64,000 nt of DNA from Candidatus Caccoplasma merdavium (lineage in GTDB: Bacteria > Bacteroidota > Bacteroidia > Bacteroidales > UBA11471): assembly GCA_018715595.1 (NCBI GenBank), contig DVLI01000019.1:1-64000 (forward strand), given 5' to 3'. The translations under genes were made by a program, and so were the position numbers. The notes beneath the pieces are model-generated. The model saw nothing but the letters and a program-made list of their open reading frames with translations, was not told the DNA's origin and did no database searches. Below are positions 26,254 to 44,642 of the stretch, piece by piece. The stretch's first letter is position 1; the number at the start of each line of letters is the position of its first letter.

Positions 26254-26392
26254 GTCAAGAATTGTCGTCGTGCGCATTCCCGGCTCGAAAAACAGGAGTC
26301 CGTAAAGAAGATTGCCTCTGCTAAAAGTCGCAAGATTTCAGGCGTTGTGGCTCAATCAGGCTCTTTCCTCGAAAGCTGTTGAATGCGGTGGG

Positions 26393-26563
26393 TATGGCAG
26401 GTCTTCTGACTTGTTCCTGCATCAAGCAGCCTTCCCGGTCGGTGCCAGTGGCTTGTGTGATGGCTTGTGCATGGTGATGGAACTCACAGCAGCGGGACTG
26501 TCCGGGATTTTCACCCGATTCCCTTTTAATCTCCATGCCCCGGCGGGGCATTTCGAACCAATA
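26393..26563 (-). ncRNA. cobalamin (AdoCbl) riboswitch upstream of btuB
   Basis: Read on the minus strand, the leader carries the canonical cobalamin-riboswitch blocks in order: a GGGAATCGGGTGAAAATCCC segment, GGACAGTCCCGCTGCTGTGA, a variable arm with GCCACTGGCACCGACCGGGAAGG-type core (CCGGGAAGGC) and the B12 box AGTCAGAAGACCTGCC (26397-26412 on the plus strand). It lies 140 nt before btuB, so on corrinoid binding it would repress the btuB-btuG transcript. The 5' boundary is set from the promoter just upstream; the 3' boundary is approximate. Confidence 0.93.
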
Positions 26564-26569
26564 CGGCCG

Positions 26570-26600
26570 CAAAGGTAATAATATTTTGGAAAGTAATAAA
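26570..26600 (-). promoter_or_regulatory. promoter of the cobalamin riboswitch and btuB-btuG
   Basis: CAAAGGTA (26570-26577; TACCTTTG on the minus strand) with TAAA (26597-26600; TTTA) 19 nt upstream. The transcript would begin about at the first riboswitch helix. Confidence 0.65.
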
Positions 26601-39616: not shown

Positions 39617-41371
39617 TTACAGTACGGTGGCGATGTCTTCGACGATTTGCGGGGCGGTGAGACGGTTGGCCGAGAGTAATTCGCCGGCGTCGTATCGGTC
39701 GACAAACTCTTTGCGCAGTCCGTAATTGAGCACTTTCATATCGCTGTCACCGTAGAATCGGGCTATTTTCTCGCCGAAACCTCCGTCGAGAATGCCGTCT
39801 TCGAGCGTGATGACCAGCCGGTGGTCTTTTTTCAGGCTGTCGAGCATTTTGTCGTCGGTGCCGGTGAGGTAACGCGGGTTGATGAGGGTAGGGGTGATTC
39901 CCTGTTGCTCGTGCAACTGTTGGGCAACCGTTTCGCCTAATTGGTAGAATGACCCGGCGGCGATGATGGCGACCGTGTCGCCCTGTTGCATGACCTTGTA
40001 GCGGTTGAGGTCGCCGTAATCGGCATCGACGGGTGCGTTGTTGCATATCACGCCGTTGCCCGGCACGCGAATGGCCACCGGGTGGCTCGTTTGCCGCATA
40101 CCCCAACGGAGCATGGCAAAATATTCCTCTTTGCAGGTCGGTGCCAGATAGACCAGGTTGGGTATGTTGGAGAGCATGGGTATGTCGAATAGCCCGAGAT
40201 GGGTGACATCGTTCATGCCCCATACCGAAGCGGCGAAGACGCAGATGACGGCCGGGTTGTTGTTGATGCAGAGGTCTTGCGAGAGTTGGTCGTAGGTGCG
40301 TTGTATGAAAGAGCTGTACACGCCATATACGGGGCAGCCTCCACCGGCAGCGATGCCCGAAGCCAGTGCTACGGCGTGTTCTTCGGCAATGCCCACGTCG
40401 ACAAACTGCCGGCCGGCTTTGCGACGGCGTTCGGGTGAGAAGCCGAATACGGCAGGAGTACCCGACGTGATGGCGACGACTCGCGGATCCTTGCCTATTT
40501 CGTCGAGCAGGAAGGCTCCGGTGAGTTCGTCGTAGTCTTTTTCCTCCTCAGAAACGTTTACTTCTCCTGTCGAGAGGTCGAACGGCAGGCTCCAATGGAA
40601 ACGTTCCTTCTCCTGTTCGGCCAAGGCGTAACCCTTCCCTTTCAGGGTGTGTATGTGCACGACTACCGGGTGCGGGCAGTCTTTGACCCGACGGAATGTC
40701 TCGATGAGGGTGGCGATGTCGTTGCCCTCCTCGACATAGACGTAGTCGAGACCCAGCGATCGGAAGTAGTTGCAGGGGGCTTCACCGTGGCTTTCGCGCA
40801 GCAGTTGCAGGTTTTGGTACAGTCCGCCGTGGTTTTCGGCGATGGACATTTCGTTGTCGTTCACGACGATGATCATGTTGGTGCCGGCTTCGGCTGCATT
40901 GCTCAGCCCTTCGAAGGCTTCCCCTCCGCTGAGGGAGCCGTCGCCTATGACGGCGATGATGTTTCTCCGTTCGCCTTTCAGGTCGCGGGCCTTGGCCAGT
41001 CCACAGGCCAGGCTCACCGAGGTCGAGGTGTGTCCTACGGTGAAGAAGTCGTGTTCACTTTCCTGCCGGTTGGTATATCCGGTTACGGAGTCGTATTCGG
41101 CCGGGTCGAGAAAGGCTTCGGCGCGACCGGTAAGCATTTTGTGGGTATAGCTTTGGTGCGAAACGTCATAGACGATTTTATCGTGGGGAGAGTCAAACAC
41201 GACATGCAGGGCAATCGTGGCCTCGACCATGCCGAGATTGGGACCGACGTGTCCGCCGTGAACGCTGAGCTTTGCCAGCAGGGCTTGTCGTATCTCTTGC
41301 GACAGCTCTTCGAGTTGTGACAAGGAGAGTCGTTTGATGTCTTGGGGAGAGTGGATTTGGTTTAGGAACAT
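39617..41371 (-). CDS. dxs: 1-deoxy-D-xylulose-5-phosphate synthase, short form
   Basis: Condenses pyruvate and glyceraldehyde-3-phosphate with thiamine diphosphate, first step of the MEP isoprenoid pathway. At 584 residues it is shorter than the usual 620-640. Seen: SVHGGHVGPNLGMVEATIALHVVFDSPHDKIVYDVSHQSYTHKML, thiamine-diphosphate motif AVIGDGSLSGGEAFEGL, the pyrimidine-domain FVDVGIAEEHAVALASGIAAGG, and a transketolase C-domain. Bacteroidales often hold a long and a short paralogue; this resembles the short type, which may have a different or auxiliary role. A -7 box (TATCTTTG; 41462-41469) lies 91 nt upstream. Confidence 0.88.
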   Translation of the reverse strand: MFLNQIHSPQDIKRLSLSQLEELSQEIRQALLAKLSVHGGHVGPNLGMVEATIALHVVFDSPHDKIVYDVSHQSYTHKMLTGRAEAFLDPAEYDSVTGYTNRQESEHDFFTVGHTSTSVSLACGLAKARDLKGERRNIIAVIGDGSLSGGEAFEGLSNAAEAGTNMIIVVNDNEMSIAENHGGLYQNLQLLRESHGEAPCNYFRSLGLDYVYVEEGNDIATLIETFRRVKDCPHPVVVHIHTLKGKGYALAEQEKERFHWSLPFDLSTGEVNVSEEEKDYDELTGAFLLDEIGKDPRVVAITSGTPAVFGFSPERRRKAGRQFVDVGIAEEHAVALASGIAAGGGCPVYGVYSSFIQRTYDQLSQDLCINNNPAVICVFAASVWGMNDVTHLGLFDIPMLSNIPNLVYLAPTCKEEYFAMLRWGMRQTSHPVAIRVPGNGVICNNAPVDADYGDLNRYKVMQQGDTVAIIAAGSFYQLGETVAQQLHEQQGITPTLINPRYLTGTDDKMLDSLKKDHRLVITLEDGILDGGFGEKIARFYGDSDMKVLNYGLRKEFVDRYDAGELLSANRLTAPQIVEDIATVL

Positions 41372-41630: not shown

Positions 41631-42992
41631 TTAGATGATTTTTTCGAGTTGCGAAATGTTGCGGGCCACTTCTTCGTCGGTGACTTCGTAGTTTTGCAGG
41701 TCGTTGGCGATGTATTGGTCGTAAGCTGCCATGTCGATGAGACCGTGACCCGAGAGGTTGAAGAGAATGACTTTTGATTTTCCTTCGAGTTTGGCTTGTT
41801 CGGCTTCACGAATGGCTGTTGCGATGGCGTGCGACGACTCGGGCGCGGGAATGATGCCTTCGGCCTGGGCAAAGATGGTGGCAGCCTTGAAGGTTTCGAG
41901 TTGGGGTATGTCGACAGCTTCCATGAGACCCTCTTTGCGCAACTGGCTTACGATGGAGCCGGCTCCGTGGTAACGGAGACCGCCGGCGTGGATATTCGAC
42001 GGTGAGAAGTTGTGTCCCAGCGTGAACATGGGGATAAGAGGCGTGTATCCGGCTTCGTCGCCAAAGTCATACTGGAAGACACCGCGGGTGAGCTTGGGGC
42101 AGGAGGCCGGCTCGGCCGCAACGACGCGGAGATTCTTCCCTTCTTTCAGCTTGTGGCGCAGGAAGGGGAAGGAGATGCCCGAGAAGTTCGAACCGCCACC
42201 GAAGCAGGCGATAACCACATCGGGATATTCTCCGGCCATTTCCATCTGCTTTTCGGCTTCGAGTCCGATGACCGTTTGATGCAGCATCACATGGTTGAGC
42301 ACACTGCCCAGCGTATATTTGCAGTTGGGCGTCTGCATGGCCAGTTCCACGGCTTCGGAGATGGCGGTTCCCAAACTGCCTTGGTAGTTGGGGTGCTCGG
42401 TGAGGATTTTACGGCCGGCACGGGTACTCATACTGGGCGATGCGATGACTTGGGCACCGAATGTCTGCATGATGGAGCGGCGATAGGGTTTCTGGTGGTA
42501 GCTCACTTTTACCATATACACGGCCAGTTCGAGACCGAAAGCCTTGGCGGCAAAGGAGAGTGCGGCACCCCATTGGCCGGCACCGGTCTCGGTGGTGATA
42601 TTGGTTACGCCCTCTTTTTTGCAGAAATAGGCTTGTGCAATGGCCGAGTTGAGTTTGTGGGAACCTACCGGGCTGACACTTTCGTTTTTGAAATAGATGT
42701 GGGCCGGGGTGTCGAGATATTTTTCGAGGCCGTAGGCTCGTACCAGGGGGGTCGGTCTCCATATCTTATACATGTCACGCACTTGTTCGGGTATCTCTAT
42801 CCAGGCATCGGTCTGGTTCATCTCCTGGTGTGCCAGTTCTTTGGCGAAGAGCGGATAGAAATCTTCCTCTTTCATCGGTTGATGGGTCTGAGGATTCAAG
42901 GGGGGCAGGGGTTTCGTCTTCATGTCGGCGACGATGTTATACCATGCCGTGGGAATGTCTTTTTCTTGCAGTAAAAATTTTTTTGTTTCCAT
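41631..42992 (-). CDS. trpB2: TrpB2-type tryptophan synthase beta-like PLP enzyme
   Basis: A 453-residue PLP enzyme of the TrpB2 clade: it makes L-tryptophan from serine and indole and in this clade often works without TrpA. Diagnostic TrpB2 segments are the N-terminal extension (METKKFLLQEKDIPTAWYNIVADMKTKPLPPLNP), WRPTPLVRAYGLEKYL, PLP lysine K113 in VSPVGSHKLNSAIAQAYFCKKEG, and TETGAGQWGAALSFAAKAFGL. Phosphate loop FGGGSNFSG. No trpA or other trp gene is adjacent. The gene is preceded by a promoter, a Trp-rich leader peptide and an attenuator, so tryptophan probably controls its expression (see separate entries). Confidence 0.93.
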   Translation of the reverse strand: METKKFLLQEKDIPTAWYNIVADMKTKPLPPLNPQTHQPMKEEDFYPLFAKELAHQEMNQTDAWIEIPEQVRDMYKIWRPTPLVRAYGLEKYLDTPAHIYFKNESVSPVGSHKLNSAIAQAYFCKKEGVTNITTETGAGQWGAALSFAAKAFGLELAVYMVKVSYHQKPYRRSIMQTFGAQVIASPSMSTRAGRKILTEHPNYQGSLGTAISEAVELAMQTPNCKYTLGSVLNHVMLHQTVIGLEAEKQMEMAGEYPDVVIACFGGGSNFSGISFPFLRHKLKEGKNLRVVAAEPASCPKLTRGVFQYDFGDEAGYTPLIPMFTLGHNFSPSNIHAGGLRYHGAGSIVSQLRKEGLMEAVDIPQLETFKAATIFAQAEGIIPAPESSHAIATAIREAEQAKLEGKSKVILFNLSGHGLIDMAAYDQYIANDLQNYEVTDEEVARNISQLEKII

Positions 42993-43043: not shown

Positions 43044-43085
43044 TACAAAAAAAGAAGGTTTGTCACGGCCGTGACAAACCTTCTT
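43044..43085 (-). terminator. attenuator terminator of the trpB2 leader
   Basis: A perfect 17-bp inverted repeat (AAGAAGGTTTGTCACGG and complement, centre GGCC) followed on the minus strand by seven T, located between the Trp leader peptide and the trpB2 start. It lies within the transcript of trpB2, so it must be bypassed for expression. Its 5' arm (read on the minus strand) also pairs with an upstream ACAACCT, the antiterminator. Confidence 0.85.
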
Positions 43086-43099
43086 ATATGGGGATATGG

Positions 43100-43108
43100 A
43101 GGTTGTGT
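43100..43108 (-). promoter_or_regulatory. antiterminator segment of the trpB2 attenuator
   Basis: On the minus strand this reads ACACAACCT. ACAACCT can pair with AGGTTTGT in the terminator's 5' arm (seven pairs, one bulged T), and CAACCT can instead pair with AGGTTG inside the leader codons. That gives the 1:2, 2:3, 3:4 layout of classical trp attenuators. Confidence 0.6.
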
Positions 43109-43109
43109 C

Positions 43110-43172
43110 TTACGACCATCGGGGGTGTAAGTGACGCCAACCTTGCCAATTTTTTGCGTATGTCGAATGCAT
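43110..43172 (-). CDS. trpL: Trp-rich attenuator leader peptide
   Basis: A 20-residue open frame: MHSTYAKNWQGWRHLHPRWS with Trp at positions 9, 12 and 19. Three Trp in 20 residues is far above expectation and is the hallmark of trp operon leader peptides. It starts about 16 nt after the predicted transcription start and ends a few bases before the antiterminator. When charged tRNA-Trp is scarce the ribosome would stall at the Trp codons, freeing the antiterminator and allowing trpB2 to be transcribed. This is inferred from sequence; no homologue is known to me. Confidence 0.75.
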   Translation of the reverse strand: MHSTYAKNWQGWRHLHPRWS

Positions 43173-43194
43173 GTCGTTCGTTTTTTCTTTGAGG

Positions 43195-43226
43195 CAAAAG
43201 TAGAAAAATAAATTCAATTCTACAAC
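43195..43226 (-). promoter_or_regulatory. promoter of the trpL-trpB2 leader
   Basis: CAAAAGTA (43195-43202; TACTTTTG on the minus strand) with CAAC (43223-43226; GTTG) 20 nt upstream. It lies between the PL1 gene and the leader peptide, before the attenuator. Confidence 0.65.
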
Positions 43227-43244: not shown

Positions 43245-44642
43245 TTATTTTGTAGAAAAATTCTTGCCGACCAGGCTGTTGAGGTAACATTCGATATTGG
43301 TATATTCCTGGCTTATCGTGTAGGCCGAGGCATCGCTCGGGTCGTGCCGATTGAGCCCGTGACGTTTTTCCCAGCGGTCGGGCATACCGTCGCCGTCACT
43401 GTCCTTGCGGGGCTTTTTCGATTTCAACTTGGGCCAGCCGCCGGCATCTGTGGGCGTGTCGATGATGCCGTTGGTGCCGAATGTCCCGAGACCCTTTTTC
43501 ACTTGCTCGATGACCGCCTTGTCGTAGCTGTCGCGGGCGTGGCTGCACCCGGCGATGGCCAATACCCGGCGGTAGGCTTCGGCCGGGCTGTCTTCTTCTA
43601 TCGGTTCATAGGGGAATGGGGTGGAGACGATGCACGAAGCACTTGCCTCACCCGGCGTGGGAACGGCATCGGGAGCTATGCCGAGCGTTTTCTGGCTGTT
43701 TTTTGCATCGGGGGTATAGCTCTTTCCCGGACGGTCACCGATGGCGGCAAGGTTGTCCAAAGTCACGGCCGTGTCGCCCTCCATGACATTGCCGGCCACA
43801 TAGTAGCGTCCGGTCCCGTCATCGGCCACGTCGAGCAGTCGGTGGTGTTGCGAGGCCGGTCCCGGTTTGTAATAATTGTTTACGAGGTTTATCTCGCCGT
43901 GGTGCCCTCCGCCATACGCGGTTTTATACCCCCAGTTATACACGACGTTGTTGCGGTAATCGACCCATTTGGTACCGTCGACCGAGGCAAAGCGCGGGTT
44001 GCGGCTCGCGTGGTTGGCCAGCAGGTTGTGGTGGAACGTTGCTTTGTATCCGCCCCAAATGCCGCCGAAACCGTGGCTTCCTTTGGTGTGTATCGAGTGG
44101 TTCAGGCTGTGCGAGATGAGACACCATTGCACGGTGAGATTCTCGGTCTTGTATATCGACAGGCACTCGTCGATACTCCAACTGGCAGAGAGGTGGTCGA
44201 GAATTACATTTTTCTGTCCGTAACGACCGCCTCCTATGCCGTCGCTGTCGCGTTGGTAACGGTCGCCCACACGCACGCGCAGGTAACGTATGATGACGTT
44301 GCTGGCATTGATGGTCAGCGGATAATCTTTCAGGCAGATACCGTCGCCCGGGGCCGATTGCCCGGCGATGGTGATGCTGTCGTTGTTGATGCGCAAGGGC
44401 GATTTCAATTCGATGGTTCCGTCGATGGCAAAAACAATGATGCGGGCACCTTTCTGTTCTACGGCATCGCGTAGGCTGCCGGGGCCGCTGTCGTTGAGAT
44501 TGGTTACGGTGATGACTTTGCCGCCCCGTCCGCCGGTGGTGTATTTCCCATATCCTTCGGCGCCGGGAAAGGCGAGGGGCTGGGCTTGGCTTATGCTCCC
44601 CATGCTGAATAGCAGCAATAGAGCGGGGAAGATGTTTTTCAT
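43245..44642 (-). CDS. secreted pectate lyase, PL1 family
   Basis: A 465-residue secreted lyase that splits pectate by beta-elimination. Signal peptide MKNIFPALLLLFSMGSISQAQ; then the PL1 parallel beta-helix beginning PLAFPGAEGYGKYTTGGRGGKVITVTNLNDSGPGSLRDAV, and containing NVIIRYLRVRVGDR, DGIGGGRYGQKNVILDHLSASWSIDECLSIYKTENLTVQWCLIS and NPRFASVDGTKWVDYRNNVVYNWG. The C-terminus carries a DSDGDGMPDRWEKRHGLNRHDPSD segment, a thrombospondin type-3-like Ca-binding motif. It is the last gene of the GH28-SEL1-PL1 run and precedes the trpB2 unit. Confidence 0.9.
   Translation of the reverse strand: MKNIFPALLLLFSMGSISQAQPLAFPGAEGYGKYTTGGRGGKVITVTNLNDSGPGSLRDAVEQKGARIIVFAIDGTIELKSPLRINNDSITIAGQSAPGDGICLKDYPLTINASNVIIRYLRVRVGDRYQRDSDGIGGGRYGQKNVILDHLSASWSIDECLSIYKTENLTVQWCLISHSLNHSIHTKGSHGFGGIWGGYKATFHHNLLANHASRNPRFASVDGTKWVDYRNNVVYNWGYKTAYGGGHHGEINLVNNYYKPGPASQHHRLLDVADDGTGRYYVAGNVMEGDTAVTLDNLAAIGDRPGKSYTPDAKNSQKTLGIAPDAVPTPGEASASCIVSTPFPYEPIEEDSPAEAYRRVLAIAGCSHARDSYDKAVIEQVKKGLGTFGTNGIIDTPTDAGGWPKLKSKKPRKDSDGDGMPDRWEKRHGLNRHDPSDASAYTISQEYTNIECYLNSLVGKNFSTK

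Follow-up and report, generated by a model that had tools for sequence, protein, structure and literature searches.

The window analyzed here is the whole 64,000-nucleotide stretch of DNA, and its minus strand carries trpB2 (41631 to 42992), which encodes a stand-alone tryptophan synthase beta chain of 453 amino acids. The stand-alone TrpB2 class of the gene was confirmed by matches above the cut-off to both TIGR01415 (608 bits) and NF009057 (712 bits) and by its position outside a trp operon, and it is the sole TrpB-type gene of a 2.39-Mb genome that is 99.5% complete. TrpB1 gave no match in this genome, nor did the models for trpA, trpE, and tnaA (tryptophanase), which do match known control genomes; for TrpB1, trpA, and trpE, this agrees with the absence of a trp operon asserted in an earlier note on this DNA. 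On the same strand upstream lies a pectate-lyase-like gene (43245 to 44642), and about 260 nucleotides downstream of trpB2 is a gene for a DXS-like protein of 584 amino acids (39617 to 41371; NF008968 subfamily). Elsewhere in the window, a cobalamin riboswitch was found at 26379 to 26577 (97 bits).

The region between the pectate-lyase-like gene and trpB2 contains, on the minus strand, the promoter and the 20-codon leader with Trp at positions 9, 12, and 19 that the earlier note had described. The putative promoter is of the Bacteroidetes type, with a -33 element TTG (43223 to 43225) placed 20 nucleotides from the -7 element TACTTTTG (43195 to 43202; consensus TAnnTTTG). Of 18 trpB2 leaders, 16 had this motif no more than 70 nucleotides from their start, mostly 17 to 24 nucleotides upstream, against a shuffle expectation of 1.0. 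The leader open reading frame (43110 to 43172) reads MHSTYAKNWQGWRHLHPRWS followed by a stop codon. Downstream of it is an intrinsic terminator (43047 to 43085) consisting of a hairpin (43085 to 43052, -22.1 kcal/mol) and a run of seven T residues (43053 to 43047). The seven T residues are as claimed before, but the hairpin has 15 rather than 17 bp and closes on a GGCC loop; the figure of 17 is that of the inverted repeat counted as loop-free. The terminator (3:4) pairs covary in an alignment of trpB2 and operon leaders.

Two further pairings can form in this leader. A 1:2 hairpin, the putative anti-antiterminator, spans 43097 to 43148 (-16.8 kcal/mol), with a p of 0.065 for the window alone and of 2.7e-6 over 18 related trpB2 leaders. 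Segment 2 (43097 to 43120), which overlaps the leader stop codon, would form the 5' side of an antiterminator, and segment 3 (43064 to 43084), which comprises the terminator 5' arm, the loop, and the first bases of the 3' arm, its 3' side. The dual pairing proposed earlier, in which ACAACCT binds either AGGTTG (43143 to 43138) or AGGTTTGT in the terminator 5' arm, is possible in both forms; the antiterminator pairing given there is present, but the full 2:3 duplex is longer, joining 43120 to 43097 with 43084 to 43064.

We evaluated the 2:3 pairing in 84 leaders with a terminator, 18 of trpB2 and 66 of operons, by pairing segment 2, defined as the stretch of RNA that stays exposed when a ribosome stands on the Trp codons, with the terminator 5' arm, loop, and first 3'-arm bases. 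The window duplex had an energy of -20.6 kcal/mol, with a z of -3.8 and a p of 0.007 relative to shuffles. A p below 0.05 was obtained for 13 of the 18 trpB2 leaders (combined p of 1e-13, which, like that of the 1:2 hairpin, is indicative, the sequences being related and their independence overstated), and 47 of the 66 operon leaders passed the same test. In the trpB2 leaders, segment 2 tended to match the terminator of the same leader more closely than the terminators of other leaders, with a median rank of 0.03, a covariation-like sign in the 2:3 stem.

Folding of the window RNA with a ribosome at different codons gave states that differ in the expected sense. With the ribosome at Trp9 (43148 to 43146) or Trp12 (43139 to 43137) and the 3' arm only begun, segment 2 is kept free and the antiterminator forms (-19.0). 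With the ribosome at Trp19, most of the antiterminator is lost, and with the ribosome at the stop codon, the terminator alone can form. The logic of mutually exclusive pairings that had been claimed for this lone trpB2, with a putative 1:2 hairpin beside the 2:3 and 3:4 pairings, is thus well supported computationally, both by the 2:3 duplex and by the stall-position folds. Since at equilibrium the terminator (-22.1) is slightly stronger than the antiterminator (-20.6), the switch would have to be kinetic, as in enterobacteria. The third Trp codon, which the earlier note had included in the control, fared differently: because a ribosome stalled at Trp19 buries segment 2, and because this codon is nonconserved, Trp19 probably has no regulatory role.

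The window leader region folds better than its shuffled versions (z of -4.7), as a leader that binds a ligand or a tRNA (a riboswitch or a T-box) rather than being translated would also be expected to do. We consider such a reading barely credible, since the window leader matches no Rfam riboswitch or T-box, and leaders from different families retain the Trp codons in a frame that can be translated, although much of their remaining sequence has diverged.

The GTDB family of the organism, which by its nearest named record looks like a Coprobacter, consists of one genus with seven genomes. TrpB2 alone was found in two of them (G000 and G149, the latter 78% complete), TrpB1 together with TrpB2 in one (G151), TrpB1 alone in three (G068, G152, and G153), and neither in one genome that is 70% complete. 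Each of the three genus genomes that carry trpB2 has the leader-terminator layout in front of it. The other two leaders, MNFLSRNWQGWRHLHSQRS and MNMIVTHICHWQGWYRTYNPHRS, both keep Trp9 and Trp12 as W-Q-G-W, and both lack Trp19, so that conservation of the Trp codons within the genus holds for the first two and fails for the third. Among 80 close TrpB2 relatives, a Trp leader preceded trpB2 in 10, namely, the two genus members and eight Paludibacter-type loci, one of which (L072) starts with GTG and contains only one Trp; an apparent leader at L073 was rejected because it lies inside the upstream coding frame. Among the same relatives, the trpB2 loci of Parabacteroides, Tannerella, Barnesiella, and Muribaculaceae had no Trp leader. 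Absence of the leader in relatives that keep the gene, which would speak against the attenuator, is hence seen in many of them, including most gut relatives (Parabacteroides, Tannerella, and Muribaculaceae), while all three trpB2-bearing genus genomes retain the leader with Trp9 and Trp12; the Trp leader on trpB2 is therefore a lineage trait.

These loci also bear on whether the hairpin might merely terminate transcription of the upstream pectate-lyase-like gene, the Trp codons being there by chance. That gene lies on the same strand, ends 160 nucleotides before the hairpin, and is also the upstream gene at L002. At L004 (from G149) and four Paludibacter-type loci (L058, L059, L065, and L072), however, the upstream genes are different and divergent, and the leader and hairpin persist, which means that there they belong to trpB2. 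A promoter element moreover stands between the pectate-lyase-like gene and the window leader, and no combination of leader and terminator arose in the shuffled or reversed controls described below. Chance association with an upstream terminator is thus very unlikely, and a leader dedicated to trpB2 is the reading that we retain.

To place the leader in the order, we searched 149 of its genomes with TIGR01415, which gave 50 stand-alone trpB2 genes above the cut-off; after exclusion of the window's own gene and of one partial gene, 48 upstream regions remained. The sample was drawn across the order and includes draft genomes. A region was scored as positive if it contained an ATG-initiated open reading frame of at most 30 amino acids with two or more Trp codons and, downstream of it, a terminator at least as stable as -12 kcal/mol. 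Such a Trp leader and terminator were found before 20 of the 48 sampled trpB2 genes (about 4 in 10), while the same rule gave none in 40 shuffled sets and none on the reverse strand. One apparent leader with a hairpin (G108) resembles coding sequence and was not accepted. The leader is not peculiar to the gene in the window, and the arrangement of its parts, their conservation, and their pairing are more than chance.

In two genomes (G002 and G032), the scan found Trp leaders but no terminator. This would suit a scheme in which Trp stalling is sensed but the output depends not on intrinsic termination but on Rho, on the translation of trpB2, or on RNA decay, and classical attenuation has been little tested experimentally in Bacteroidetes. 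We nevertheless regard that scheme as unlikely, given the strong U-tailed hairpin present in the window and at 20 sampled loci, which is matched by an antiterminator in most of those tested.

From the sequence evidence, we consider it highly probable that trpB2 is under the control of a ribosome-mediated Trp attenuator. Transcription would start at about 43190, just past the -7 element, and ribosomes would translate the leader peptide as the RNA is being made. When charged tRNA-Trp is plentiful, a ribosome reaching the stop codon would cover segment 2, and the 3:4 terminator would form before trpB2. When it is short, the ribosome would stall at Trp9 or Trp12 and leave segment 2 free to pair with the emerging terminator 5' arm and loop, so that RNA polymerase would read through into trpB2. 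Without translation, the 1:2 hairpin would form and lead to termination. TrpB2 would then make Trp from indole, which would have to come from outside, as trpA was not found. We infer promoter use, termination, ribosome stalling, and indole as the substrate in this species from the features above.

External indole is the likely substrate for Trp synthesis also because the genome has no match to tnaA, and by analogy with the TrpB2 of Bacteroides thetaiotaomicron (BT_RS23500), which gave a growth benefit to an Escherichia coli trpA mutant only with wild-type E. coli nearby (PMC11535334); this cross-feeding benefit was interpreted as indole use (PMC11535334). The species would accordingly be an indole salvager. 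What stand-alone TrpB2 does physiologically has been a matter of debate: a proposed serine deaminase activity turned out to be poor, and for a genome in which TrpB2 is the sole trp gene, a different selective function was suggested (PMC1854888). A Trp attenuator on about 4 in 10 stand-alone trpB2 genes of Bacteroidales, some of them in genomes without a detected TrpB1, would constitute independent genetic evidence for a role in Trp supply, and through this leader, indole salvage by gut bacteria becomes directly testable.

As for the origin of the leader, the three genus members group together in the TrpB2 tree and are nested among leaderless genes; the tree contains five changes between leader and leaderless labels, of which the well-supported branches alone force two. 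A leaderless trpB2 in a record labelled Coprobacter (HAN010, L026) falls outside the window genus group in this tree. The three genus trpB2 leaders aligned with operon leaders and with other trpB2 leaders at mean z values of 2.4 and 1.0, 4.2 and 2.5, and 2.0 and 1.1, respectively, all for short sequences, which is only suggestive of an operon leader as the source of the trpB2 leader in Coprobacter. A tentative scenario, to which we give a rather low probability, is that the trp operon was lost or reduced in Coprobacter-like lineages, that an operon-type attenuator then took over a stand-alone, leaderless trpB2, that Trp sensing was thereby rewired from de novo synthesis to indole salvage, and that many Bacteroidales may regulate TrpB2 as a Trp-supply gene via such a leader.

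The earlier note knew of no description of such a leader in these bacteria. This does not hold for the leader class: the Bacteroid-trp RNA (Rfam RF01692; Weinberg et al. 2010) has been listed as a cis-regulatory candidate RNA of Bacteroidetes (PMC2864571) and described as a Trp-leader-like element preceding the trp operon (PMC6414381), leader-peptide attenuation before amino-acid operons has been inferred in a species of Flavobacterium, also a member of Bacteroidetes (PMC9723704), and leader-like small open reading frames were noted in B. thetaiotaomicron (PMC7366714). For a leader on a stand-alone trpB2, we found no description in the literature searched, whose coverage of journals was partial.

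RF01692 matched 12 of the 149 order genomes, G068 among them; wherever the gene behind the match was identified, it was trpB1 or trpE of a trp operon and never trpB2. It had no match in the window leader (up to an E of 10) or in the genome, nor, at the gathering score, in ten related loci, nine of which have trpB2 leaders. Within the genus, trp operon leaders of the Bacteroid-trp type were present in G068, G152, G153, and G151, the RF01692 match in G068 scoring under the curated cut-off. We also built a covariance model, R1, for which 15 operon leaders were used and trpB2 leaders were left out; its E-values are rough owing to a shortened calibration. The window leader was the best R1 match in the 64 kb (41.1 bits, rough E of 6e-6), aligned over the full model, and ranked first in the genome (rough E of 2.2e-4; next match 0.4), while other trpB2 leaders scored 16 to 45 bits. 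R1 matched 82 of 198 genomes in the order. In its top 29 loci for which the next gene could be read, that gene belongs to a trp operon, except that at L112 a short gene intervenes; its weaker matches include seven stand-alone trpB2 genes, whose Trp-rich leaders are mostly of the W-W-W type. Since a model made solely from operon leaders finds trpB2 leaders while RF01692 misses them, the trpB2 leader is, by sequence and structure, related to the Bacteroid-trp RNA but lies beyond the Rfam family as curated; RF01692 did not match and was not adopted as a family label for the window leader, being its nearest kin only.

Other leaders were seen alongside these. Tandem Trp leaders, each with its own terminator, precede trp operons at L127 (1510 and 1673), L152 (207 and 347), and L158 (204 and 358; all oriented, 0-based). 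His-rich leader peptides (e.g., MKRTVLHHHHHHYNGQ) with terminators precede a hisG-like gene at L183, L162, L178, L187, and L189, two of them in tandem at L162. The Trp-operon model also found a Cys-rich leader, MKISAYISINCCWCCENTSKCKQFVNM, with a terminator before a cysteine-synthase-like gene (L154, 210; oriented, 0-based).

The window leader shares with the enterobacterial trp attenuator (trpL; Rfam Trp_leader) the 1:2, 2:3, 3:4 logic, in which its own 1:2 hairpin is putative, and the Trp codons in a leader peptide. Its segment 2, however, reaches into the stop codon of the leader and also pairs with the loop of the terminator, and it serves one gene rather than an operon. The Trp_leader model had no match to the window at the gathering score or up to an E of 10, that is, there is no detectable sequence kinship. 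In Corynebacterium diphtheriae, a Trp attenuator is likewise predicted before a gene named trpB2 (PMC1262725); that actinobacterial gene belongs to a trpB2A operon with a biosynthetic role, whereas the window trpB2 stands alone and trpA was not found. The closest likeness is to the Bacteroid-trp RNA, also a Bacteroidetes leader before Trp-making genes, as the window leader is before trpB2, with clustered Trp codons in a short open reading frame, a segment 2 that adjoins the stop codon or overlaps it, and a terminator with a U tail. The two differ in the Trp codons, W-W-W there and W-Q-G-W here, and in the target, a trp operon there and trpB2 here. The window leader is thus very probably a genuine Trp attenuator that adds a new branch to an already known class; what is new is the target gene, a stand-alone trpB2, and the frequency of the leader there.
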